Source of the DNA: Microbacterium sp. Root166
Lineage (GTDB): Bacteria; Actinomycetota; Actinomycetes; Actinomycetales; Microbacteriaceae
Reading direction: 5' to 3'
DNA length: 64,000 nucleotides
Assembly: GCF_001427145.1 (NCBI RefSeq)
Contig: NZ_LMGL01000002.1
Location: 577,442 to 641,441 of the forward strand
The translations under genes were made by a program, and so were the position numbers. Below, one piece after another: positions 45,199 to 64,000 of the stretch; within the stretch, counting starts at the first letter, position 1; each line of letters starts with the position of its first letter. The notes beneath the pieces are model-generated. The model was not told the DNA's origin and searched no databases. It worked only from the letters and a program-made list of their open reading frames with translations.

Positions 45199-47886
45199 GT
45201 GACCGAGGCAGAACCCCGCAATCCCGCCACCGACCGCACTGCGGCCGTCAAGAACCGGAAACATGGCGCTGACTCGCCCGCAACATCTGCGGCGTACCGT
45301 GACGCCATGAGCACCACCCCGTCGCCCGGCACGCACGTCGTGGTCGTGGGTGCCGGCATGGTGGCGCACCGCTTCGTGGAGAGCCTGCTCAGTCGTGGTG
45401 ACGAAGAGTGGCGCATCACCCTCATCGGCGACGAGAACCGCCATCCGTACGATCGCGTCGGGCTCACCGGCTTCTTCGGCGGCTCCACGCCCGACGATCT
45501 CACGCTCGAGCGGTCCGTCGTCGACGACGAGCGCGTGCGCTTCGTCCGGGGCGATGCGGTGGCCCGCATCGATCGCACGGCGCGACGCGTCACCACCCGC
45601 AGCGGGCTCAGCGTCGCCTACGACACGCTGGTGCTCGCCACCGGCTCGTACGCGGCACGCCTGTCCGTCGACGGGTTCGGGCTCGACGGCTGCTTCGTGT
45701 ACCGCACCCTCGACGACGTGGAGAAGCTGCGCGCCTTCGTCGAGCAGCGCAGCCGCGAGCTCGGCCGCCCGCTCACCGGCACGGTGATCGGCGGAGGCCT
45801 GCTGGGGCTGGAAGCGGCCGGCGCCCTGCAGGGACTCGACGTCTCGTGCACGGTCGTGCAGTCCTCCGACCGCCTGATGTCGGCGCAGCTGGATCTGTCC
45901 GGCGGCAACGCGCTGCGGCGACTCATCGAGTCGCGCGGCATCCGGGTGCGCACGGGCACCAGCACCACCCGCCTCGACCCCGATCGCACCGGTCAGGTCA
46001 CCGGCCTCGAGTTCCGCGACGGCAGCTATGAGCGCACCGACGTCGTGGTCTTCACCGTCGGCGTCCGGCCACGGGACGAGCTCGCGCGGGGCGCCGATCT
46101 GGCCGTCCACGAGCGTGGCGGCGTGCTCATCGACGACGGCTGCCAGACCTCGGACCCCCGGATCCTCGCCATCGGCGAGGTGGCGAACTTCGACGGCGCG
46201 TGCGTCGGCCTGGTCGCTCCCGGCTACGCCATGGCCGAGGTCGCGGCGACGCGGCTGCTCGGCGGAGAAGCCTCGTTCCCCGGATACGACCTGTCCACGA
46301 AGCTCAAGCTCTCCGGCGTGGACGTCGCGAGCTTCGGCGACGCGTTCGCCGAGACGCCCGGCGCGCTCGACGTCGTATACGCCGACCCGGTGGCCGGCGT
46401 CTACAAGAAGCTGGTGCTCTCGGACGATGCGAAGACGCTGCTCGGCGGCATCCTGGTGGGCGACGCCTCCGCCTACGGATCGCTCCGGCCGCTCGTCGGC
46501 GGGGCGCTGGGCGCCGACCCGGCCGCGTACCTGATGCCGGAGGGCGGCGTCGCCGCCCCGACCGGAGACCTGCCCGACGAGGCCCTGGTGTGCTCGTGCA
46601 ACAGCGTGACGGCGGGCACGATCCGCAACGCCGTGCACGAAGAGGGCTGCGCCGACGTGACCGCGATCAAGTCGTGCACGAAGGCGGGCGCCGCCTGCGG
46701 CTCGTGCGTGATGATGATCAAGAAGATCGTCGGCACCGAGCTCGCCAAGTCCGGCGCGGCGCTCAGCAACGCGCTGTGCGAGCACTTCGACATGTCGCGC
46801 CGCCAGCTCTTCGACGCGGTGCGGGTATCGGGCCTCACCACCTTCAGCAGCGTCATCGAGCGATTCGGCTCCGGCCGCGGCTGCGACATCTGCAAGCCCG
46901 CCCTGGCCAGCATCCTGTCGACGCTCGTGGGCGCGCACGTGCTCGAGGGTGAGAACGCCACGCTGCAGGACACCAACGACCACGTCATGGCCAACCTCCA
47001 GAAGGACGGCAGCTACTCGGTCGTGCCGCGCATCCCCGGCGGCGAGATCACTCCTGAGGGACTCGTCGTCATCGGTCAGGTCGCCCAGGACTTCGGCCTG
47101 TACACCAAGATCACCGGCGGGCAGCGCATCGACATGTTCGGCGCCCGCCTCGAGCAGCTGCCCGACATCTGGAAGCGACTCGTGGATGCCGGATTCGAAT
47201 CCGGCCACGCGTATGGCAAATCGCTGCGCACGGTGAAGTCGTGCGTCGGGTCGACGTGGTGCCGCTACGGCGTGCAGGACTCCGTGGGCATGGCCGTCCA
47301 GCTCGAGCTGCGCTACCGAGGGCTGCGCTCGCCGCACAAGATCAAGCTCGGCGTCTCGGGCTGCGCTCGGGAGTGCGCCGAGGCCCGCGGTAAGGACGTC
47401 GGCGTCATCGCGACCGAGGCCGGCTGGAACATGTACGTCGGCGGCAACGGCGGCTTCACTCCCCGCCACGCCGTGCTGCTGGCCGAAGGGCTCAGCGACG
47501 AGGAGCTGCTCACGGCGATCGACCGCTTCCTGATGTACTACATCTTCACGGCCGACCGGCTGCAGCGAACCGCCCCCTGGTTCGAGGACCTCGAGGGCGG
47601 GATCGACGGACTCCGGTCCGTGATCTTCGACGACAGCCTCGGCATCTGCGCCGACCTCGACGCCGCCATCGCCACCCACGTCGGCTCGTACGAGGACGAG
47701 TGGAAGGCCACCATCGAGGACCCCGAGAAGGTTCGCCGTTTCGCGTCGTTCGTGAACGCTCCGACCACGCCGGACCCGTCGCTGGCCTACACCGAGGAGC
47801 GCGGTCAGGCGCGTCCCGCCACCGACGCCGAGCGCCAGAGCGGCGGCGTCCTCATCGCCGGAACCATCCTGGAGGTGCGCCGATGA
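45199..47886 (+). CDS. nirB: Assimilatory nitrite reductase large subunit
   Basis: An 895-aa flavo-iron-sulfur sirohaem enzyme that reduces nitrite to ammonium with NAD(P)H. FAD/NAD oxidoreductase domain (HVVVVGAGMVAHRFVESLLS, VIGGGLLGLEAAGAL), a [2Fe-2S] BFD domain with C465, C467, C500 and C503, a second BFD-like segment (GSGRGCDICKPALASI), and the sirohaem/[4Fe-4S] ligands C682, C688 (CVGSTWC), C722 and C726 (CAREC). GTG 45199 is chosen because CAGGAG lies just upstream; ATG 45307 would be a shorter alternative. Overlaps nirD by 4 nt and heads a four-gene coupled operon. Confidence 0.95.
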   Translation: MTEAEPRNPATDRTAAVKNRKHGADSPATSAAYRDAMSTTPSPGTHVVVVGAGMVAHRFVESLLSRGDEEWRITLIGDENRHPYDRVGLTGFFGGSTPDDLTLERSVVDDERVRFVRGDAVARIDRTARRVTTRSGLSVAYDTLVLATGSYAARLSVDGFGLDGCFVYRTLDDVEKLRAFVEQRSRELGRPLTGTVIGGGLLGLEAAGALQGLDVSCTVVQSSDRLMSAQLDLSGGNALRRLIESRGIRVRTGTSTTRLDPDRTGQVTGLEFRDGSYERTDVVVFTVGVRPRDELARGADLAVHERGGVLIDDGCQTSDPRILAIGEVANFDGACVGLVAPGYAMAEVAATRLLGGEASFPGYDLSTKLKLSGVDVASFGDAFAETPGALDVVYADPVAGVYKKLVLSDDAKTLLGGILVGDASAYGSLRPLVGGALGADPAAYLMPEGGVAAPTGDLPDEALVCSCNSVTAGTIRNAVHEEGCADVTAIKSCTKAGAACGSCVMMIKKIVGTELAKSGAALSNALCEHFDMSRRQLFDAVRVSGLTTFSSVIERFGSGRGCDICKPALASILSTLVGAHVLEGENATLQDTNDHVMANLQKDGSYSVVPRIPGGEITPEGLVVIGQVAQDFGLYTKITGGQRIDMFGARLEQLPDIWKRLVDAGFESGHAYGKSLRTVKSCVGSTWCRYGVQDSVGMAVQLELRYRGLRSPHKIKLGVSGCARECAEARGKDVGVIATEAGWNMYVGGNGGFTPRHAVLLAEGLSDEELLTAIDRFLMYYIFTADRLQRTAPWFEDLEGGIDGLRSVIFDDSLGICADLDAAIATHVGSYEDEWKATIEDPEKVRRFASFVNAPTTPDPSLAYTEERGQARPATDAERQSGGVLIAGTILEVRR

Positions 47887-50659: not shown

Positions 50660-51337
50660 TCAGGCCAGCAGATCCGGCCGGTGTGCGCGCGTGCGCTCCA
50701 GGCTCTGCTCGCGACGCCAGGCCGCGATGGCGCCGTGATTCCCGCTGAGCAGGACGGGCGGCACCTCGTGGCCGCGCCAGGTGGCGGGCTTGGTGTAGCT
50801 GGGGTACTCCAGCAGGCCGTCCTCGTGCGACTCCTCGACCAGGCTCTCCGGATTGCCGACGACCCCCGGCACGAGCCGCGAGACCGCCTCGACCACGGCC
50901 ATCGCGGCGACCTCGCCGCCGTTGAGGACGTAGTCGCCGAGGCTCACGAGCCGCACACGTCCGCGTGCGCCGTAGTGATCGACCACTCTCTGGTCGATGC
51001 CCTCGTACCGGCCGCACGCGAAGATCAGGTGCTTCTCCTCGGCGAGCTCGCGGGCCATCCGCTGCGAGAACACCTCGCCGGCGGGCGACGGGACGAGCAG
51101 CACGGGGTCGTCGCTGATCAGCTCGTCCAGCGCCTCGCCCCAGGGTTCCGGCTTCATGACCATTCCGGCGCCGCCGCCGTACGGGGTGTCGTCCACCGTG
51201 CGGTGACGGTCGTGCGTCCAGGCACGCAGATCGTGGACGTGCATGTCGAGCAGGCCGCGGTCCCGGGCCTTGCCGATGAGCGAGACGTCGAGCACGTCGA
51301 AGAACGCCGGGAAGATCGTGACGATGTCGACGCGCAT
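50660..51337 (-). CDS. trmD: tRNA (guanine(37)-N1)-methyltransferase
   Basis: A 225-aa SPOUT enzyme methylating G37 of tRNAs reading CNN codons. [73 protein letters not shown] and the trefoil-knot/linker [20 protein letters not shown] are complete. The frame is open upstream, but ATG 51337 fits the family start; TAGACT at plus 51345-51350 ends 7 nt before it, suggesting an own leaderless promoter now that it is detached from rimM (6 kb upstream) and rplS. Confidence 0.95.
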
Positions 51338-51410
51338 GAGTTCGAGTCTAGGCATCCGATCCCGTGTTTCCGGCGTGTGACCACAGACCCACCGGCCGCC
51401 CGGCGGTGCA

Positions 51411-51460
51411 GTGACGCAGATGTGACGGAGAAGTAACTCCGCTGGACCCGGCGCGGAAAC
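51411..51460 (+). promoter_or_regulatory. narK operator: three GTnAC at exact 11-bp steps plus GAAAC
   Basis: GTGAC (51411), GTGAC (51422) and GTAAC (51433), each separated by 6 bp, with GAAAC at 51456, 23 bp after the start of GTAAC. This is the best match of the three sites to the GlnR-box pattern (AC-n9-AC-n9-AC). The array ends about 45-70 bp before narK, a position suited to activation. A further GTGAC lies at 51377. Confidence 0.7.
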
Positions 51461-51504
51461 ACCCGCTTCATACGGTGAAGGCACACTCGAACCAAGGAGG
51501 CGTC

Positions 51505-52926
51505 ATGACCACGACCGCAGGTCCGTCCACGACCGATGTCGCAGCTCCGCCCCCGGCGCTCGCGCCGGTCGTCCTGTCCCACCGACCCGGCCGTTGGATC
51601 GACGGCTGGAACCCCGAGGACGGCGCCTTCTGGCAGTCCTCGGGGCGCTCCATCGCCCGCCGCAACCTGGGCTGGTCGATCTTCGCCGAGTTCCTCGGCT
51701 TCATCATCTGGCAGCTGTGGAGCATCATCGTCGTGATGCTGCCGGGGGCCGGCTTCACCCTGACCAGCTCCGAGCTGTTCTGGCTCATCTCACTCCCGAG
51801 CCTCGTGGGTGCCACGCTCCGCTTCCCGTACACCTTCATGGTGGCGATCGTCGGCGGCCGCAACTGGACCATCATCTCCGCCGCGCTGCTGCTCATCCCC
51901 GCCGTGCTGATCGGCGTCGTCGTCTCCAATCCCGAGACGCCGTTCGGCGTGCTCCTGCTCGTCGCGGCCCTCGGCGGCGTCGGCGGCGGCAACTTCGCCA
52001 GCTCGATGGCGAACATCACCTACTTCTTCCCGCAGAAGGAGAAGGGCTGGGCCCTCGGGCTCAACGCCGCGGGCGGCAACCTCGGCACCTCCGTGGCCCA
52101 GTTCGCGGTGCCGATCGTCGTGACCATTGGTGCCGGCGCGACCCTGAACATCGCCCTGGCCGGATGGATGTGGATCCCGTTCATCCTGCTCGCGATGTGG
52201 GGCGCGTGGCGCTACATGGACAACCTGTCCTCGGCGAAGGCCGACTTCTCGGGCTCCGCGGCGGCGCTGCGCGAACCGCACCTGTGGATCATGGCGCTCC
52301 TGTACATCGGGACGTTCGGCTCGTTCATCGGGTTCGCGAGCGTGTTCCCCAAGCTCATCGCCGACCAGTTCCCGATGTTCTCCACGTTCCAGGTGGGCCA
52401 GGCCGCTGTCTCGCTGGCGTTCCTGGGAGCCCTCGTCGGCTCGCTCGCACGTCCGTACGGCGGCCGGCTCGCTGACCGCTTCGGCGGAGCGCGCGTCACC
52501 GTCGGCGCCTTCTCGGTCATGGCGCTGGGCGCGCTGTCGCTCATCTGGACGCTGCCGATGCAGAACTTCTGGGTGTTCCTCGGATGCTTCCTGGTCCTCT
52601 TCGCAGCGACCGGCATGGGCAACGGCTCGACCTACCGCATGATCCCCAGCATCTTCGCGGGGCGCGCGGTCGCGACCGGAGCACTTCCCGGCACTCCCGC
52701 CGGGATCAAGATGCAGCGCAAGTCCGCGGCGGCGCTCGGCCTGATCTCCGCCATCGGCGCCTACGGCGGCTTCATGGTCCCTCAGGTGCTCAACGTGTCG
52801 CAGCAGGCGACCGGGGGCTACGTCGCCGCGTTCTACGGCTTCGTCGCGGCCTACCTCGGGCTGATGGTGCTGACCGTTCTCGTCTACGTCATCCCGCGGA
52901 AGTCGCTGGCCGGCTACCGCATCTGA
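51505..52926 (+). CDS. narK: MFS nitrate/nitrite transporter (NarK family)
   Basis: A 473-aa transporter with twelve hydrophobic helices. The nitrate signature appears twice in the family; here GGNFASSMANITYFFPQKEK with GWALGLNAAGGNLG (helix 5 region) and the second ATGMGNGSTYRMIPSIFAGR are seen. RPYGGRLADRFGGARVTVGA is the MFS loop. Expected to import nitrate and possibly export nitrite. ATG 51505 is preceded by a strong AAGGAGG (51494-51500). Convergent with the nitrate reductase gene; a terminator follows. Confidence 0.95.
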   Translation: MTTTAGPSTTDVAAPPPALAPVVLSHRPGRWIDGWNPEDGAFWQSSGRSIARRNLGWSIFAEFLGFIIWQLWSIIVVMLPGAGFTLTSSELFWLISLPSLVGATLRFPYTFMVAIVGGRNWTIISAALLLIPAVLIGVVVSNPETPFGVLLLVAALGGVGGGNFASSMANITYFFPQKEKGWALGLNAAGGNLGTSVAQFAVPIVVTIGAGATLNIALAGWMWIPFILLAMWGAWRYMDNLSSAKADFSGSAAALREPHLWIMALLYIGTFGSFIGFASVFPKLIADQFPMFSTFQVGQAAVSLAFLGALVGSLARPYGGRLADRFGGARVTVGAFSVMALGALSLIWTLPMQNFWVFLGCFLVLFAATGMGNGSTYRMIPSIFAGRAVATGALPGTPAGIKMQRKSAAALGLISAIGAYGGFMVPQVLNVSQQATGGYVAAFYGFVAAYLGLMVLTVLVYVIPRKSLAGYRI

Positions 52927-52938
52927 GCGATCCCCCCG

Positions 52939-52970
52939 AACGGGCCGCATCCGAGAGGATGCGGCCCGTT
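52939..52970 (+). terminator. Terminator after narK
   Basis: A 14-bp perfect stem (AACGGGCCGCATCC, 52939-52952, with 52957-52970) and GAGA tetraloop, 13 bp after the narK stop and followed by TCTCG. The run of A and T at the stem ends makes it workable in both directions. Confidence 0.8.
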
Positions 52971-53039
52971 TCTCGTGCGGATGCCGCGATCCCGGGGTCC
53001 TCCGCGGCGCCGGCGCGCGGCATCCGCAACCCGTCGAAA

Positions 53040-53086
53040 GTGCGCGAACGACCGGACTGCGTGCGACGTGAGCGTCATTCGCGCAC
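53040..53086. repeat. Intergenic inverted repeat downstream of nasA
   Basis: 9-bp arms GTGCGCGAA (53040-53048) and TTCGCGCAC (53078-53086) flank 29 bp that can pair further (ACG/CGT). It lies in the 214-bp gap between convergent narK and the nitrate reductase, which has no gene. It could be a processing or termination element for the nitrate reductase mRNA or one copy of a dispersed palindromic repeat. Confidence 0.5.
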
Positions 53087-53140
53087 TCACGGCCACATCG
53101 CGAGGACCCTGAGGTCCGCTGCTGCGTCGACGTGTGCGCG

Positions 53141-56100
53141 TCAGTAGACGTCGCGGACGTAGCGTGCCTGCGCGACGAGGCTCTTCCGGTACTCCACGGC
53201 CGCCTCTTCCGACAGTCCGCCGTGGCGCTGGGCGATCGTCACCAGCGTGTCGTCGACGTCCTTGGCCATGCGGCTGGCATCACCGCACACGTACAGATGC
53301 GCGCCGTCCTGCAGCCAGCGCCACAGCTCGAGGCCGTGCTCGACCATGCGGTCCTGCACGTAGACCTTCTGACGCTGGTCGCGCGAGAACGCGAGGTCGA
53401 GTCGCGTGAGGAACCGATCGTCCCGCATCTGCTCGAGCTCATCGCGATAGTAGAAGTCGGTCGCCTCGTGCTGCTCGCCGAAGAACAGCCAGTTGCGCCC
53501 GGTATGCCCGTCGGCGCGGCGATCGTGCAGGAAAGCCCGGAACGGCGCGATCCCGGTGCCCGGACCGATCATGATCATCGGCGCGTCCGGTGCCGCCGGC
53601 GCGCGGAAGTGGGCCGAGCGCTGGAGGAAGATGGGCGCCGGCCGGTCCCCGGCGACATCGGCGAGGAAGGTGGACGCCACCCCGCCGCGACGATGGCCGG
53701 CCTCGGTCTCGAACCGCACGACCGAGACGGTCAGCTGCACCTCGTCGGGGCTGGTCTTCGGGCTCGACGAGATCGAGTACTGGCGGGGCTGCAGGCGCTT
53801 GAGCACCGACACCCACTCCTCGGGGTCGGCCTGCACCGGGAAGGCCCGGAGCAGGTCGACGGCGTGCATGCTCCACAGGTACTGCTCGAGCCTGCCCTTG
53901 TTCTCGCGCCGCAGCAGCGTCGCCAGCGCGGGGTCAGGGTTGCGCTCGGCCACGAAGGCCAGCAGATCGGGCGTGATGCGCGTGATGTCGAGCTGGGTGC
54001 GGAGCGCGTCCTCGAAGAACCGCTCGTCGCCGTCCCACGCGACGATCGCATGCGCGGGCAGGCCGGTCGTCTGGAGCCACTCCTCGACCATTCCGGGCGC
54101 GTTCTCGCACACGACGCCGAGCGAGTCGCCCGCTTCGTAGGTCACGCCGGCGTGGGAGATGTCGAAGCCGAACTGCCGCACCTCCTTGGCAGAGCCGGCG
54201 CCGCTCAGCAGCGTGTTGGTCACCAGGGCAGCACGCACCGGATTGCCGCGCGTGAACATGCGTCGGGCAGGAGCGGCGGTCGGGACATCACCGGAGGCGA
54301 CGGATGCCGCGGCACCCGGCGCGAGCCGGGTGAGGACCTGCTCCAGCCAGGCCGCCGCCGGTTCGGCGTAGTCCGGCTCACAGTCCACGCGCGGCACCAG
54401 CGCGGTCGCCCCGAGCGCGGCCAGGCGTTCGTCGATGCTCCGGCCGTGCCCGCAGAAGTCGTCGTAGCTCGAGTCGCCGATCGCGAAGACGGCGTACGTG
54501 AGACCGGCGAGCTCGGGGGCGCCGTCGCGGTTGAGGTCGTCCCACAGGTCCGCGGCGTTGTCGGGCGGGCCGCCGTCTCCGAACGTCGAGGTGACCACCA
54601 GCAGCGTGGCCACCGAGGGAAGGTCCGACACCGCCATGTCGACCATGCTCACGGTGCGCACCGGGATGCCACGGGCGCTCAGGGTCGCGGCGCAGGCGGC
54701 GGCGACCTCCTCGGCGTTTCCGGTCTGCGACCCCCACAGCACCGTCACCTCGCCGTGGGCGGCATCCTCTCCCCCGGTCGTCAACGGCGCGCGGGAGTAC
54801 AGGCCCGCCAGCACACCGTCGAACCAGGCCCGCGAGAGGGCGCTCAGCGGCGACGCGGACGGCAGCACCGGGACCACGTCGGTCGCGACCGGTGCGGCCT
54901 CAAGCGCGGAAAGGAACCCCGAGACGTACGCTCCCTCGGCCTCGGTCAGCGCCGGTGCGGCGGCGGGACCCAGGCCCGCGCCCGCCAGGACGGCGCGCGC
55001 CGCGTCGCGGTCGAGCCGGGCGGTCGTCAGCTCGGGAGCAGCGGCGACGGCACGCGGTCCGATCCGCCGCAGCGCGACGGCGGCGAACTTGAACTCGGGC
55101 TGCAGCGACGCCGAATCGACCGCGTCGCTGGTGACCGCGTTCACCGCCAGGTGCTCGCCGTGCTCGTCGTTCCAGTGGAACGGCGTGAAGCAGCATCCCG
55201 GCTGGACCCGGTCGGTGATCAGCGCAGGAAGAACGGCGCGACCGCGGCGGGACGAGATCTCGACCTCATCGCCCTCGTCGATGCCGAGGCGCTCGGCGTC
55301 GGCGGGGTGGATCTCGACGAACGGCTCAGCGTTCAGCCGCATCAGCTTGTCGACCTTGCCCGTCTTGGTCATCGTGTGCCACTGGTGCTGGAGCCGGCCG
55401 GTGTTGAGGATCCAGGGGTAGTCGTCGTCGGGAAGCTCCGCCGGACCCAGGTGAGGACGTGCGAAGAACTGCGCGCGACGCGACGCCGTGGCGAACGCCA
55501 GGCGCGGAACCGTGCCGTCCGCCTCGCGGTGCAGGCTCTGGCTGACACCGTCGTTCACATACCGGATCGGATGCCGATCCTCGGGGTCGCTCGGCGGCGC
55601 CGGCCACTGGACCGGGCCGCTGCGCAGGCGCTCGTAGTCGACACCGCGGATGTCCCAGCCCGTCTGCGGGTTCCAGAACCGGCGGATCTCGTCGAAGACC
55701 TCTTCGCTCGAAGTGAACGCGAAACCCTCGTCGAAGCCCATGGCCTGCGCAACGCGGCAGATCATGAGCCAGTCCGGCTGGGCATCGCCGGGGGCCTCGG
55801 CCGCCCGCTGCACGAGGGTCATGGTGCGCTCGCTGTTGACCATCACCCCCTCCGCCTCGACCCAGAGGGTGGCCGGCAGCAGGATGTCGGCGTAGGCGTT
55901 GGTCGCCGTCTCGGTGAAGACGTCCTGCACGATCACCAGCTCGGCCGCTTCGAGGCCCTCGATGACCGTCTTGCGGTTCGCCACCGAGGCTACCGGGTTG
56001 GTGCAGATGATCCAGGCCGCCTTGATGTCGCCGGCCGCCATCGAGCGGTACAGGTCGATCGTGCCCGTGCCCGCCTCGGCGCGGATCGCTCCGGGCTCGA

Positions 56101-57262
56101 TGCCCCACACCTCCTCCACGAACGCGCGGTCGGCCGGACTGAACACGGCGCGCTGACCGGGCAACCCCGGGCCCATGTAGCCCATCTCGCGGCCGCCCAT
56201 CGCGTTGGGCTGGCCGGTGAGCGAGAACGGGCCGCTGCCGGGACGGCAGATCGCGCCTGTCGCGAGGTGGAGATTGCAGATCGCGTTGGTGTGCCACGTG
56301 CCCTGCGTCGACTGGTTCAGGCCCATCGTCCACAGCGTCATCCACTCGCCGGCCTCGCCGATCCAGCGCGCCGCCGTGCGGATGTCATCCTCCGCCAGTC
56401 CGGTGACGGCGGCGACACGCGCGGGCGTGTACTCCGCGAGGAACTCGGGCATGCCGTCCCAGCCGTCGGTGTGGGCGGCGATGAACTCGCGATCGATGAG
56501 GCCGTCGGCGACGAGCAGGTGCAGCAGACCGTTGAGCAGGGCCAGATCGGTGCCGGGTTTGATGGGCAGGTAGAGGTCCGCGCGGTCGGCGGTCGCCGTG
56601 CGGCGCGGGTCGACCACGATGAGCCGCGCCCCCCGCTTGAGCCGGTCGGCCATCCGGAGGAACAGGATCGGATGACAGTCGGCCATGTTGGATCCGATGA
56701 CGAAGAACAGGTCCGCCTGATCGATGTCCTCGTACGACCCGGGAGGGCCGTCGGCGCCGAGAGACTGCTTGTAGCCCGTGCCGGCCGAGGCCATGCACAG
56801 CCGGGAGTTGGACTCGATGTGCAGCCCGCGGAGGTACCCCTTCACGAGCTTGTTCGACAGATACTGCGCCTCGATCGACATCTGTCCCGAGACGTACAGA
56901 GCGACGGCGTCGGGACCGTGCTCGTCGACGATGGCCCGCAGCCGCGTGCCCGCCTCGGCGATCGCGGTGTCCATCGGCACGGGCACCGTCTCCTCGCCGC
57001 TGGCGGGGCGGAGGTGCGCCGTGGTCATCCGCCCGGGAGCGTGCATGAGGTCGACGTGCGTCGCCCCCTTGGTGCACAGGCGCCCGGCGTTGGCCGGATG
57101 CGCCTTGTCGCCGACGGCCTTGCCGAGGACCAGCCGGCCGGCCGCGTCGGTGTCCGTCGACACGGTGATGCCGCAGCCGACCCCGCAGTACGAGCACACC
57201 GATCGCACCTCGGTCGCGGGCGCGCGGAGGCCCGCGTGCGACGAGTGCGCGATCGTGGCCAT
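53141..57262 (-). CDS. Assimilatory nitrate reductase fused to CysJ-type diflavin reductase
   Basis: A 1,373-aa fusion. Residues about 15-735 are a molybdopterin Nas/NapA-type catalytic unit: [4Fe-4S] ligands C23, C26, C30 (CSYCGVGC) and C63, the Mo ligand probably C156 in [11 protein letters not shown], and a C-terminal pterin-dinucleotide domain. After an Ala-rich linker, residues from about 839 are a flavodoxin domain ([15 protein letters not shown]), then FAD- and NADPH-binding parts ([39 protein letters not shown]) ending YVRDVY like CysJ. It can pass electrons from NADPH through FAD/FMN to the Mo site within one chain. The ATG start is 44 bp from the operator. No membrane segment or Tat signal: cytoplasmic. 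Confidence 0.95.
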
Positions 57263-58826: not shown

Positions 58827-58892
58827 TCTGCCAGATGACGGCACGTGCCGCGAACCACCCGGCTCAGCCGGAGCCCATGCCAGACTGAGCGA

Positions 58893-60056
58893 ATGACGGT
58901 GCCCTTCGCGACATCCGCCCGCTCTTCGGTGGGACTGGAGTGGGAGCTCATGCTCGCCGACGGCCGCAGCGGCGATCTCTCGCCCCGCGCGCCCGAGATC
59001 CTCGAGCATCTCGAAGAGCACACCGCGCTCGAGCGCTACACGGTCACCGGCGAGCTGCTCACCAACACCGTCGAGGTCACCAGCGGCGTCGGCGACACCG
59101 TGGCAGCCGCCGTCGACGACATCGCCGATGCGATCGCCGCCGTGCGCGCCGAGACCGCCCCGCGGGAGATCGAGCTGCTCTGCGCCGGCAGCCACCCGTT
59201 CGCCCAGTGGTTCGACCAGCAGGTGACCGACAAGACCCGCTACAACAAGCTGATCCAGCGCACCCAGTGGTGGGGGCGCAACATGATGATCTGGGGCATC
59301 CACGTGCACGTCGGCGTGGAAGACGTGAACAAGGTGTTCCCCATCATCAACGCGCTGGCCGTGTACCTCCCCCATCTGCAGGCGCTGTCGGCCTCGAGCC
59401 CGTTCTGGGCGGGCGAGCGCACCGGCTACGCCTCCAACCGATCGCTCGTGTTCCAGCAGCTCCCCACCGCCGGCCTGCCGTGGCCGCTCGAGACCTGGGC
59501 GCAGTTCGAGGGGTACATCGACGATCTCGTCGGCACCGGCGTGCTCGAGGATGCGACCGAGGTGCGCTGGGACATCCGGCCCGCTCCGCGCTGGGGCACC
59601 ATCGAGGTCCGCGCGTGCGACGGCATGTCGACGCTGCCGGAGCTCGCCGCCGTCGCGGCGCTCGTGCAGGTGCTCGTCGAGCACTTCTCCCGCATGATCG
59701 ACGAGGGCCGGGAGCTCCCAGTGCTCCAGCCATGGTTCGTCCGCGAGAACAAATGGCGTGCGGCGCGCTACGGCATGGACGCGCGCGTGGTCGTCGACGG
59801 TTCCGGTACGCAGCGGCTGGTGACGGAGCATCTGCGCGAGACGCTCGCAGAGCTCGAAGACATCGCCGTGGAGCTCAAGTGCACGCGCGAACTCTCCGGC
59901 ATCCAGACCATCCTCGATCAGGGGGCCAGCTACGAGCGCCAGCTCGCCGTGGCCGACGCCGCCGACGGCGACCTCCGCGAGGTCGTCCATCACCTCATCC
60001 GGGAGTTCCGCAACGGCCCGACCCTGCGCGAGCACCTGGCAGAGCTCGGCCGCTGA
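58893..60056 (+). CDS. Carboxylate-amine ligase, YbdK/glutamate-cysteine ligase type 2 family
   Basis: A 387-aa GCS2-family enzyme. GLEWELMLADGRSGDLSPRA, ELLTNTVEVTSGVGDTVAAA, HPFAQWFDQQVTDKTRYNKL, WGIHVHVGVED and WDIRPAPRWGTIEVRACDGM are characteristic of the YbdK family. It joins a carboxylate to an amine with ATP; E. coli YbdK has weak glutamate-cysteine ligase activity, but the natural substrate here is not known. Since many actinobacteria use mycothiol rather than glutathione, a glutathione role should not be assumed. CAGACT ends 6 nt before the ATG. Divergent from rpsP. Confidence 0.85.
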   Translation: MTVPFATSARSSVGLEWELMLADGRSGDLSPRAPEILEHLEEHTALERYTVTGELLTNTVEVTSGVGDTVAAAVDDIADAIAAVRAETAPREIELLCAGSHPFAQWFDQQVTDKTRYNKLIQRTQWWGRNMMIWGIHVHVGVEDVNKVFPIINALAVYLPHLQALSASSPFWAGERTGYASNRSLVFQQLPTAGLPWPLETWAQFEGYIDDLVGTGVLEDATEVRWDIRPAPRWGTIEVRACDGMSTLPELAAVAALVQVLVEHFSRMIDEGRELPVLQPWFVRENKWRAARYGMDARVVVDGSGTQRLVTEHLRETLAELEDIAVELKCTRELSGIQTILDQGASYERQLAVADAADGDLREVVHHLIREFRNGPTLREHLAELGR

Positions 60057-60080
60057 GGCCTGCGTCGCCACCGGAGTCGC

Positions 60081-61775
60081 TCAGGCGACGGGTGTGTCCG
60101 ATCGGCCGAGCGGCGCCGGGTCGGTGGCTCCTTCGACGGTGAAGTGCGACATGCCGTGCTCGGTCTTCTGCCAGTAATGCGGCTTGGTGATCAGCTGCCA
60201 CAGCGCCTTGTAGGAGGCGATCGAGTGCAGCAGCCAGTACACCGGGTTCAGAATCGCCCATCCCACCAGCCAGAATGCTCCGCGCTTGTAAGGACCCATC
60301 ATGTTGAGGTAGACCATCAGCGCGTTGCCGACGAGGAAGTTCAGCAGACAGAGCCACAGGACCACCGGCGGGAAGGCGACGGAGACATCTGCCCACGGGA
60401 TGAAGAACGAAACGAGGGTGAGCGCGGTGAACGGGATCACGCCGAGGAACGTCAGCGGCGTGCCTGCGATGAGCAGAGTGAATGCCGCGAATCTCCGCAG
60501 TCCGATCTTTCGGATGAGCGACATCGGCTCACGAGCATGGACGAGCGCCGTCTGCATGTAGCCCTTGATCCATCGGCTGCGCTGGCCGATGAAGATCCCC
60601 ATGCGTGACGTCGCCTCCTCCATCGTCGTGGAGTCCACGACACCCACGCGATACCCGAGGGCGCTCGCCCGGATGCCGAGGTCGGCGTCCTCGGTGACGT
60701 TGTACGGGTCCCATCCGCCGAGCTCGCGCAGCGCTGCCGTACGGAAGTGGTTCGACGTACCGCCCAGCGGGATCGGAAGGTCGCGCACATCCAGGCCGGT
60801 GAGCATGTAGTCGAACCAGTAGCTGTACTCGAGCGAGAACATCCGGGTGATGATGTTCTCCCGCGCGTTGAAGTAGTTGAGGGCCGCCTGCATCACGACG
60901 ACGGACGCGTGGGCCCGTGAGAATGCGATCACCGTCTTCTTGAGCTGGTCGGGCTCCGGAGCGTCCTCGGCGTCATAGATGACGAGGAACTCGCCCCGGG
61001 CGACGTCCAGTCCGACGTTGCAGGCCCGCGGCTTGGTCTGAGGCGAACCCTTGGGCACCGTCACGACGATGAAGTGCTCCGGCGGATCCGAGACCGCGAT
61101 GGCGTCGCGGGTCTCCGTGTCCTCCTCCTCGACGAGGATGATGACCTCGAGCTTCTCGGTCGGGTAATCGAGCCGGCCGAGGTTCTCCACGAGACGGCCG
61201 ACGATCCGTGCTTCGCGGAACACCGGCACCAGAACGGTGTACATCGGCAGCTCGTGGTCCCGCAGGGCCTCGATCTCCTCCGGCCGAACGCGCGCGACCA
61301 GGTCGTATCGAGATCCGCGCAGCGCGACGAAGAACTTGAACAGCGTGCTCGCGAGAAAGACCACGCTCGCTGTGCCGATCAATCCGATCACGGTCGCGAG
61401 GGGCCAGAGCACCGCGGACACCAGCACGAGCACGACCAGGCAGATCGCTCCGATCTTCTGCGGGCGCGACAGGACGTGCCTCGCCGAGAGGACGGGGTTG
61501 GCCCGATACAGCCCGTCAGCGGCCTGGTCGGCGTACTCCGCGCTCAGCCGCTGGGTCAGGGTTGCGATGATCGTGGCCTGCGAGACGATGCGCTCGCGGA
61601 CGGGTGCTCCGACGATGGCTTCGATGCGGGCACGAGCGCGGTGAGAGAGTGGAGCGGCGGTGACGATCTCGACGCCTTCCGCCGTGCGCGCGACGGGAAT
61701 CCAACCCTCTTTCGCATACGTCGTCCGCAGGACGGGGTCGAGGATTCCGGGCGCGACGTCGATGGGCTCGATCAT
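60081..61775 (-). CDS. Processive family 2 glycosyltransferase with membrane helices
   Basis: A 564-aa GT2 enzyme. A cytoplasmic N-terminal region of about 110 residues (partly like the MshEN/GSPII_E N-domain: GWIPVARTAEGVEIVTAAPL) precedes two helices, the GT core with TVLVPVFREARIVGRLVENL, YDAEDAP (D-x-x-D), TEDADLGIRASALGYRV and QRSRWIKGY (QxxRW), then four or more C-terminal helices. The D-D-D-QxxRW set marks a processive enzyme of the cellulose/hyaluronan-synthase type, so it probably makes and exports a glycan. ATG 61775 overlaps the upstream stop (ATGA) and has GGGAG upstream. Confidence 0.85.
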   Translation of the reverse strand: MIEPIDVAPGILDPVLRTTYAKEGWIPVARTAEGVEIVTAAPLSHRARARIEAIVGAPVRERIVSQATIIATLTQRLSAEYADQAADGLYRANPVLSARHVLSRPQKIGAICLVVLVLVSAVLWPLATVIGLIGTASVVFLASTLFKFFVALRGSRYDLVARVRPEEIEALRDHELPMYTVLVPVFREARIVGRLVENLGRLDYPTEKLEVIILVEEEDTETRDAIAVSDPPEHFIVVTVPKGSPQTKPRACNVGLDVARGEFLVIYDAEDAPEPDQLKKTVIAFSRAHASVVVMQAALNYFNARENIITRMFSLEYSYWFDYMLTGLDVRDLPIPLGGTSNHFRTAALRELGGWDPYNVTEDADLGIRASALGYRVGVVDSTTMEEATSRMGIFIGQRSRWIKGYMQTALVHAREPMSLIRKIGLRRFAAFTLLIAGTPLTFLGVIPFTALTLVSFFIPWADVSVAFPPVVLWLCLLNFLVGNALMVYLNMMGPYKRGAFWLVGWAILNPVYWLLHSIASYKALWQLITKPHYWQKTEHGMSHFTVEGATDPAPLGRSDTPVA

Positions 61776-62932
61776 GCGACGCTCCCTACCAGGGTGCTCA
61801 GCCATGTGCCGACGGCATCATTGTCGAACGCCTGCGCCCAGCCGATGAGCCACAGCAGCACCGATGTCGTGCAGACGATCAGGACCATGGGCCCGGCAGT
61901 CGGACGCGGAACGACCGCGACGGCGAGCAGGAGCATCAGGACATAGTTGATGCCGGCCACACCCGGCGGCGTGAGCCCCACGATGTAGGCGACCAGGATC
62001 ATGCCGGTCATCACGGGTGCGACAAGCCCGACGCCGGGATACCGCAGCGCGATCGCCGTCAGGATGACGACGATCGTCGGGGCGAGGTAGAGGAGACCGG
62101 ACGGACTGAGAAGGATGCCGACAACGGCGTCGGCGCGCACAGGATCCCACTGGAGGTCTCCGCGGATCATCGCGAGCGGCCCGACCCGGAAGGCGACGCC
62201 GAGCAGCATCAGCGACGCCATGAGGGCCAGAGTCGGGAAGACGACGACGATGACGTTGGCCAGGCGCGATTCCGCCCGCGAGCGGACGATGAACGACGCT
62301 GCGACTGCGGCGGCGATGGCGACGAACAGTCCTGTCGAGTCCGACACCGCGGAGCAGGCGAAGAGCAGCCCGGCGCGGAATCCCGCCTGCGTATTGGCAT
62401 ACGTCACGAAACGAACGAGGTCGATCATGCCGAGCCCGAAAAAGGCGAGTCCCAGCACCGACTCGAAGCTCGTCGTGACGATGTACGCGAACATGGGCGT
62501 GAGAGCGAGCGTCAGGATGAAGACGACGCGGACCGGCAGCGGGAACTGCTTGCGCTGCATCGACTGGGTCACCAGCTGCAGGAGGATCCCGGCGACCAGC
62601 GCACCCGCGATCCCCAGTCCGAGCGGCCCACCGGGAATGAGCACCGCAAGCAGGCTGGTGATGACCGGATACAGCTCCGCTAGGGCGACGACATCCGTCG
62701 AGCCCCACGGCAGATCGGCGACCCGCGCAGCAAGCGCTCCGTTGGCGGTACCGGACCAGTCACCGCCGGATGTGACCTCGAACCATACGGCGAGAGCGAC
62801 GAACGGCGAAGCGGCGAGCAGGCGCACCGCCCATCGCAGCCAGGGATTGCGGGGATAGCGGTCGATGCGCCCGGATTCGCTCTCGAGGAAGAGCGGGGCA
62901 TCCCTTGCGAAGACCCCTTCAGCCGTTGTCAC
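61772..62932 (-). CDS. Polytopic membrane protein partnered with the glycosyltransferase
   Basis: A 386-aa protein with about ten hydrophobic helices from residue 33 on (WAVRLLAASPFVALAVWFEV at the start, MVLIVCTTSVLLWLIGWAQA at the end) and a short hydrophilic N-terminus. No family is recognised; there is no ABC or MFS signature. The GTG start follows GGAG. Coupled to the glycosyltransferase (ATGA), which suggests one complex, perhaps for polymer synthesis or transfer across the membrane. Not a normal neighbour of ffh. Confidence 0.75.
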   Translation of the reverse strand: MTTAEGVFARDAPLFLESESGRIDRYPRNPWLRWAVRLLAASPFVALAVWFEVTSGGDWSGTANGALAARVADLPWGSTDVVALAELYPVITSLLAVLIPGGPLGLGIAGALVAGILLQLVTQSMQRKQFPLPVRVVFILTLALTPMFAYIVTTSFESVLGLAFFGLGMIDLVRFVTYANTQAGFRAGLLFACSAVSDSTGLFVAIAAAVAASFIVRSRAESRLANVIVVVFPTLALMASLMLLGVAFRVGPLAMIRGDLQWDPVRADAVVGILLSPSGLLYLAPTIVVILTAIALRYPGVGLVAPVMTGMILVAYIVGLTPPGVAGINYVLMLLLAVAVVPRPTAGPMVLIVCTTSVLLWLIGWAQAFDNDAVGTWLSTLVGSVA

Positions 62933-63037
62933 CCATCTCCACCGATCCCCCCAGATCTGATCCGGACTCGAGTCTTCCGCTGTCCGGGTGAGTTCACGCT
63001 ACCAACCCGGATCGCGGAGCGAGGGTGGCGCGCGGCG

Positions 63038-64000
<963 letters not shown>

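Follow-up and report, generated by a model that had tools for sequence, protein, structure and literature searches.

The question raised by this locus is what is made by two overlapping genes that lie between ffh and ybdK in the actinobacterium Microbacterium sp. Root166, and where this gene pair comes from. We analyzed the pair within a window of 64,000 nucleotides (contig NZ_LMGL01000002.1, positions 577,442 to 641,441; coordinates below are those of the window unless a locus is named) and propose that it is a two-gene glycan-synthesis unit, derived from an apparently cyclic di-GMP (c-di-GMP)-gated system that combines a family 2 glycosyltransferase (GT2) with a glycosyltransferase of the GT-C type. 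As an explanation of the whole, we regard this as moderately probable. Both genes of the pair are real; their reading frames lie where a first-pass annotation of the same DNA had noted them, with the start of the GT2 gene now refined to 61775. Their main features are the following.

61772-62932, minus strand: partner gene, first of the pair, for a polytopic protein of 386 amino acids, predicted to be a small GT-C-derived membrane protein without the canonical first-loop acid
62666-62770, minus strand: first outer loop of the partner (amino acids 55-89) with Asn64, Asp80 and an LYP motif at the loop end
61772-61775, minus strand: ATGA overlap of the partner's stop with the likely GT2 start, suggestive of translational coupling
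60081-61775, minus strand: GT2 gene, for a QxxRW synthase of 564 amino acids when read from the second ATG as its likely start
60081-61805, minus strand: longest open reading frame of the GT2 gene in the list of such frames, 574 amino acids
61545-61766, minus strand: MshEN_C half-domain by Pfam (amino acids 14-87 of the 574-residue frame), the MshEN_N half being absent
60561-61247, minus strand: GT2 catalytic domain by Pfam (amino acids 187-415 of the same frame)
60570-60584, minus strand: QRSRW motif from the GT2 alignment (amino acids 408-412 of the same frame)

The second ATG is the more likely start of the GT2 gene because it follows a GGGAG and shares an ATGA with the TGA of the partner, and candidate starts of GT2 orthologues lie at about the same position in our own reading of the alignment. 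A promoter and terminator scan returned no promoters and one terminator-like site, the same as in shuffled sequence.

The GT2 protein matches the Pfam family Glyco_tranf_2_3 with an E-value of 3.9e-26, and the catalytic acids of its VEEED, DAED and TED motifs as well as the Q, R and W of QxxRW are invariant in all 24 aligned sequences, the window's own included, which bears out the D-D-D-QxxRW synthase proposed in the first-pass annotation. Two hydropathy segments precede the catalytic domain and two follow it (membrane-helix counts are from simple hydropathy throughout). NCBIfam matches of the protein to CelA and PgaC stayed far below cut-off, and the Pfam scan gave no PilZ match. Its structure model is poor, with a predicted local distance difference test (pLDDT) score of 47 and an alpha/beta N-terminal domain at pLDDT 57-83; it was used solely for the secondary structure of that domain and as weak support, and a Foldseek search with it gave 33 matches at E <= 0.001, including BcsA, HAS, GtrB and ArnC. 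In one draft genome that is 77% complete, the GT2 frame is split near its end into two tblastn pieces in different frames (L045:5590-7273), either by a sequencing error or because the gene is broken, and L045 was excluded from the GT2 alignment A3.

By hydropathy, the partner has 11 segments (8-12 across the 27 rows of its alignment, which keeps L061 with a GT2 lacking MshEN and L053 with a contig end before the GT2), and it matches no Pfam or NCBIfam model at cut-off. With the alignment of the GT2 as query (E <= 1e-70, at most four candidates scored per genome), relatives of the enzyme turned up in 16 genomes of a phylum sample of 296 and in 25 genomes of a class sample of 296; both counts include the window's own genome. 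Beside many of these lies a GT-C protein: a GT-C profile built from the partners at 7 phylum loci has a match within about 2 kb of the GT2 in these 7 of the 15 phylum loci and in all 20 class loci newly fetched. One of six GT-C partners scanned exceeds the cut-off of PF13231 (PMT_2) and another falls just below it; the six measure 552-591 amino acids and carry a C-terminal outer part that the window partner, at 386, does not have. When the window partner family was compared by hhalign with the 7 GT-C partners, the two aligned at 98.0% probability (E 2.2e-13) over about 295 columns, and a second run gave 95.5-98.1% for three sets of GT-C partners versus 0.1-0.8% for three unrelated polytopic sets. 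In the reverse direction, the hidden Markov model (HMM) of the window partner family, run against 1624 open frames of 35 distant loci, produced matches at E < 0.1 in 8 loci, each on a frame also matched by the GT-C profile (best 1e-8, in family f33). As judged by profile homology, the partner is a descendant of GT-C glycosyltransferases of the PMT_2 type and no longer the unrecognised protein of the earlier annotation.

Several observations weigh against this assignment. None of the 27 partner proteins matches a GT-C Pfam model by itself, and the AlphaFold2 model of the partner, made from 6 sequences, is weak (pLDDT 57, predicted template modelling score 0.64). A Foldseek search with it returned nothing at E <= 0.001, its best rows being AftD, ALG12 and AftB. 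Sequence profile searches of PDB yielded no more than chance matches when the partner family was the query (E >= 0.29), and the GT-C partners had no match at all. Of the 50 rows that VIA-align displayed for the weak model, the first 35 (Z 12.2 to 6.8) are GT-C enzymes or complexes that hold one according to their titles, among them Pmt4, ALG12, PIG-U, ArnT, AftA/B/D, PimE, PglB and Emb, and unrelated chains follow from Z 5.9, although the program warns that a Z under about 13 can reflect a common arrangement of helical proteins. The weak model and the lack of a family match for the partner by itself would also suit an unrelated, transporter-like protein whose likeness to GT-C is a general effect of membrane helices, but the three control membrane families stay at 0.1-0.8% against 95.5-98.1% for the GT-C sets, and the HMM matches fall on frames beside the same GT2, so that we consider this reading very unlikely. 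At three loci, the genes for the GT2 and the GT-C protein are directly preceded by one for a protein of about 8 hydropathy segments, which makes a three-gene set; this 8-segment protein has no Pfam or NCBIfam match at cut-off, and an exosortase link that we considered for it found no NCBIfam or Pfam support and was dropped. Its genes are the following.

L087:7469-9244: gene of the 8-segment protein
L088:7467-8885: gene of the 8-segment protein
L089:7446-8969: gene of the 8-segment protein

In GT-C enzymes, an acid of the first outer loop is the catalytic residue. This acid is D or E in all 26 GT-C partners that have a residue there, and the same column holds T, S or H in the 27 Microbacteriaceae rows, with D or E in none. 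The Glu of an NGMSE motif is present in 22 of 27 GT-C partners and missing from all 27 Microbacteriaceae rows; Asn64 of the partner is kept in 26 of 27 rows, and none of its acids is conserved in every row. Against a loss of the acid stands, first, that the loop is variable and hard to align, so that the loss depends on that alignment, and, second, that 24 of the 27 Microbacteriaceae rows have some D or E within a few columns of the acid column. Position 80 in particular is D in 20 rows and E in 1 (neither in the other 6), which makes a displaced catalytic acid, with Asp80 taking over, possible.

This bears directly on an alternative of donor and user: a polyprenyl-phosphate sugar, made by the GT2, would be consumed outside the cell by the partner, which would then be an active GT-C enzyme with its acid moved to Asp80. 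Many GT-C enzymes use polyprenyl-phosphate sugars, and ArnC/ArnT and GtrB/GtrC are such pairs of a donor-making and a donor-using enzyme. The conservation of an acid at position 80, the retained first-loop acids of the partners in other actinobacteria and the appearance of GtrB and ArnC among the Foldseek matches of the poor GT2 model speak for this alternative. Against it, the invariant QxxRW and the hydropathy segments that flank the catalytic domain fit processive synthases better, and the partner has no invariant acid, position 80 included; we think it rather unlikely.

The N-terminal domain of the GT2 is where the window pair departs from its distant relatives in a second respect. According to the available part of PMC5013675, MshEN binds c-di-GMP mainly via two 24-residue motifs in its four-helix N half, and in the part available of PMC8669469 the E. 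coli protein NfrB is a GT2 under MshEN control. The window GT2 matches Pfam MshEN (PF05157) at 26.9 bits, above the cut-off of 23.1, over amino acids 14-87. This model spans mainly the C half of MshEN (in L047 it covers amino acids 55-140, behind most of the four-helix part), and the window protein has the MshEN_C fold only; the c-di-GMP-binding MshEN_N half is missing. We scored motifs over 22 positions and 12 key residues, with NfrB as a control (21 and 10). The best motif-like stretch of the window GT2 lies in and just behind MshEN_C and scores 16 positions and 5 key residues; a stretch of NfrB outside MshEN reaches 14 and 5. Eleven Microbacteriaceae rows that we read as keeping four helices score 15-17 positions and 2-4 key residues, with L056 among them matched out of register, and L062, which has a longer N-terminus, scores 13 and 5, also out of register. 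By our own threshold for an intact motif (at least 19 positions and at least 8 key residues), 10 distant GT2s have intact motifs (19-22 positions, 8-12 key residues), whereas shuffled sequences, 20 per row, reach at most 17 and 6.

The MshEN-like segment of the first-pass annotation is thus present in its C half alone, and the cyclic-nucleotide binding suggested for it found no support: c-di-GMP gating in the window organism was rejected on the motif score and the missing MshEN_N. Continued gating of the synthase through c-di-GMP or another nucleotide bound to this domain would be in keeping with a Pfam match above cut-off, with distant relatives whose motifs are intact and with the one GGDEF match in the host genome, but the half-domain, the score of its best stretch beside that of the non-MshEN stretch of NfrB, and the 11 of 25 pair-bearing genomes that have no GGDEF match at E <= 0.001 render it highly improbable.

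Four of the 10 intact motifs (L082, L085, L091 and L092; 21-22 of 22 positions) occur together with a GT-C partner, which led us to reject a strict mutual exclusion of the two. These 4 of the 35 distant loci, in which the same GT2 bears an intact c-di-GMP motif and stands beside a full-length GT-C protein that retains the acid, would show the ancestral actinobacterial form. Among the other loci, 23 combine a GT-C partner with a motif that is not intact, 6 show the reverse, with the motif intact but no GT-C partner recognised, and 2 have neither; the 23 and the 6 speak against our proposal, because they mean that gate and GT-C partner are not tightly linked. GGDEF matches number 4-53 per genome in the 10 genomes with intact motifs and are absent from 4 genomes of family f33 with degraded motifs. 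Weighing on the other side, GGDEF is also found in 17 of 23 searched genomes without an intact motif. In Microbacteriaceae, 14 of 25 pair-bearing genomes have a GGDEF match versus 4 of 15 Microbacterium genomes that lack the pair. At one locus, a gene for a PAS-GGDEF diguanylate cyclase (L079:3041-4237) and the gene of a GT2 whose two motifs are intact (L079:5671-7629) are separated by about 1.4 kb. From these comparisons, gating by c-di-GMP is probable for the ancestral unit but not for that of the window, and both the partner's usual catalytic acid and the c-di-GMP switch appear to have been lost in the window pair.

The two genes of the pair travel together. GT2 and partner are adjacent, in both orders, in 18 of 19 fetched loci, with the contig ending first in the remaining one, and their divergences correlate across 24 loci (Mantel r 0.717, reached by 0 of 5000 permutations). 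Over the same loci the mean pairwise identity is 0.69 for the GT2 and 0.40 for the partner, and the partner therefore evolves faster than the GT2. In one Microbacteriaceae genome (L049:5337-11248) the pair is duplicated in tandem, the second GT2 being only 54% identical to that of the window. Comparative sequence analysis thus supports the class of the GT2, the coupling of the genes and the ancestry of the partner, and the coupled two-gene glycan unit of the first-pass annotation stands, in the conditional form in which it was put.

How such a unit would work, that is its polymer, its sugar, the passage through the membrane and the role of the partner as a subunit, is what we infer. The most likely product is a glycan that is secreted or displayed at the cell surface. 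Using a nucleotide sugar at the inner side, the GT2 would assemble the sugar chain and pass it through its own membrane part. The GT-C-derived partner would be an obligate membrane subunit and not a normal GT-C catalyst; it may hold the chain as it emerges, or a lipid-linked sugar. The MshEN_C remnant would serve as a docking surface, and the synthase of the window organism would therefore be ungated by c-di-GMP. Seen over time, a gated two-enzyme GT2/GT-C system found across Actinobacteria would have become, in Microbacteriaceae, an ungated synthase with a non-catalytic GT-C subunit, by stepwise loss of the switch half of MshEN with GT2 catalysis kept, a course of events that we put forward tentatively, as plausible rather than probable.

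The distribution of the pair is patchy. The partner was found in 8 of 99 sampled Microbacterium genomes, and a search with the N-terminal part of the GT2 had matches in 11 of 98, including the same 8; the other 3 matches were weak (E 1e-4 to 1e-3) and were set aside as matches to membrane segments. A sample of the family Microbacteriaceae had the partner in 18 of 199 genomes and 14 of 85 genera. In the class sample, the partner profile, with at most six candidates per genome scored, found the window's own genome alone (1 of 296); at this number of candidates the distant GT-C partners were missed, and they were found later through the GT2. In the genus, the pair adjoins ffh in 6 of the 8 carriers and lies elsewhere in the other 2 (G057 and G089), and it adjoins ffh as well in all 5 loci from named records, 3 of which belong to the same genomes as genus carriers. 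Microbacterium aoyamense DSM 19461 (L011) is one of the carriers of the pair. The first-pass annotation had named presence at this site throughout the family as evidence against its reading; at 11 of 17 loci from other genera the pair instead stands beside one cluster of related proteins, the scanned member of which is thrS (in L047, thrS is followed by HIT, pdxS, pdxT, yebC and ruvCAB). Taken over all carriers, the sites of the pair are the ffh-ybdK gap, a place upstream of thrS, and others. The gene order in the window is ffh, the pair, ybdK on the opposite strand, rpsP, KH and rimM; ffh and ybdK were named by Pfam, while rpsP, KH, rimM, trmD and the nitrate genes below were named by our own reading without a search.

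63038-64000, minus strand: 3' part of ffh (SRP54) inside the window, upstream flank
58845-60056, plus strand: carboxylate-amine ligase gene of the ybdK/GCS2 family, downstream flank in convergent orientation, ending 24 bp away from the GT2 stop

In 5 longer ffh stretches, ybdK comes after the pair, once with another frame between. Among 16 ffh regions of genus genomes without the pair there, ffh, ybdK and rpsP were found together in 13, with rpsP outside the stretch in 3. In these 13, ffh and rpsP are 1.33-1.42 kb apart in 7, with little but ybdK between them, 2.2-2.7 kb apart in 3 and 5.9-6.6 kb apart in 3. The gap between ffh and ybdK (60057-63037 in the window; L095-L110) is a spot for variable cargo, with other frames in 6 of the 16 regions (SGNH-hydrolase-like, glycerol-3-phosphate dehydrogenase and regulator-like by our own reading).

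A variable gap, a patchy occurrence and the position of the pair away from ffh in 2 of 8 carriers would all fit a recent horizontal gain, which concerns the origin of the pair and is compatible with any reading of its function. Relatives that are close by ffh identity also differ in carrying it: at 95%, the closest one is without the pair and a second relative carries it, and ffh identity is only 89% for two genomes that have the pair at the ffh site. Yet carriers scattered in this way still have the pair beside ffh in 6 of 8 cases, and the identities of the pair to that of the window (about 82-72% for the GT2, about 80-57% for the partner) drop roughly in step with those of the flanking genes. 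The codon use on which the first-pass annotation had based a transfer is indeed less biased at third positions (GC3 of 0.839 and 0.868) than that of the ffh part (0.950) and ybdK (0.923), but much like that of rpsP (0.870) and trmD (0.869); among 45 window frames, chosen by a rule that itself favors high GC3, the two genes rank at the 22nd and 27th percentile, the pair is no outlier, and a horizontal gain was rejected as a conclusion from codon use. The pattern is explained at least as well by an old presence followed by losses or by exchange through the flanks, and a recent gain appears doubtful to us.

Beyond rimM, the window holds nitrate genes between rimM and trmD (50660-57262), mostly named by our own reading.

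50660-51484: trmD, by our own reading
51475-52926, plus strand: major facilitator superfamily transporter (Pfam MFS_1), NarK-like by our own reading
53141-57262: fused molybdopterin oxidoreductase/flavoprotein reductase of 1373 amino acids, by our own reading
45199-47886: nirB-like gene, by our own reading

The fused oxidoreductase gene also follows rimM in 7 of the 16 other ffh regions and lies further off in one more.

With these results, an orphan membrane protein is assigned to GT-C ancestry and joined to a widespread actinobacterial gene pair, of which we noticed no description in the literature searched, mostly titles and the beginnings of abstracts. The natural series from an intact motif with a full GT-C enzyme to a half domain with a GT-C protein that seems to lack the acid could be used to study the loss of the switch in a GT2 synthase, and it bears on whether a GT-C fold can act as a non-catalytic synthase subunit in bacteria.

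Among known systems, the E. coli exopolysaccharide system NfrBA-YbcH, as far as it is described in the available part of PMC8669469, comes close in that NfrB is a GT2 with DxD, TED and QxxRW fused to MshEN and has an overlapping partner gene. Its MshEN is C-terminal and has both c-di-GMP motifs, whereas that of the window is N-terminal and halved, and its partners are the outer-membrane protein NfrA and YbcH rather than a polytopic membrane protein of apparent GT-C descent; the window pair thus has neither the order of GT2 and C-terminal MshEN nor the NfrA partner of an NfrB-type system. BcsA, PgaC and hyaluronan synthase share the D, D, D, QxxRW signature and the hydrophobic segments around the GT2 domain, but the window GT2 has no PilZ match, an N-terminal MshEN_C and a GT-C-like partner, and its neighbors are ffh and ybdK, with no recognised BcsB- or PgaD-like partner. 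The PMT_2-type GT-C proteins of other actinobacteria resemble the window partner through profile homology over about 295 columns and through the same GT2 neighbor; they are longer, and they have the C-terminal outer part and the first-loop D/E, both of which it appears to lack. PIG-U, the GT-C-fold subunit of the glycosylphosphatidylinositol transamidase, is eukaryotic, belongs to another complex and gave no sequence match in our searches. It is stated to be enzymatically inactive in the available part of PMC7801869, has a GT-C-like fold of similar length (VIA-align Z 11.5 and 11.1 with the weak partner model) and may serve as a model for what we propose here, a non-catalytic GT-C relative that binds a lipid-linked sugar.

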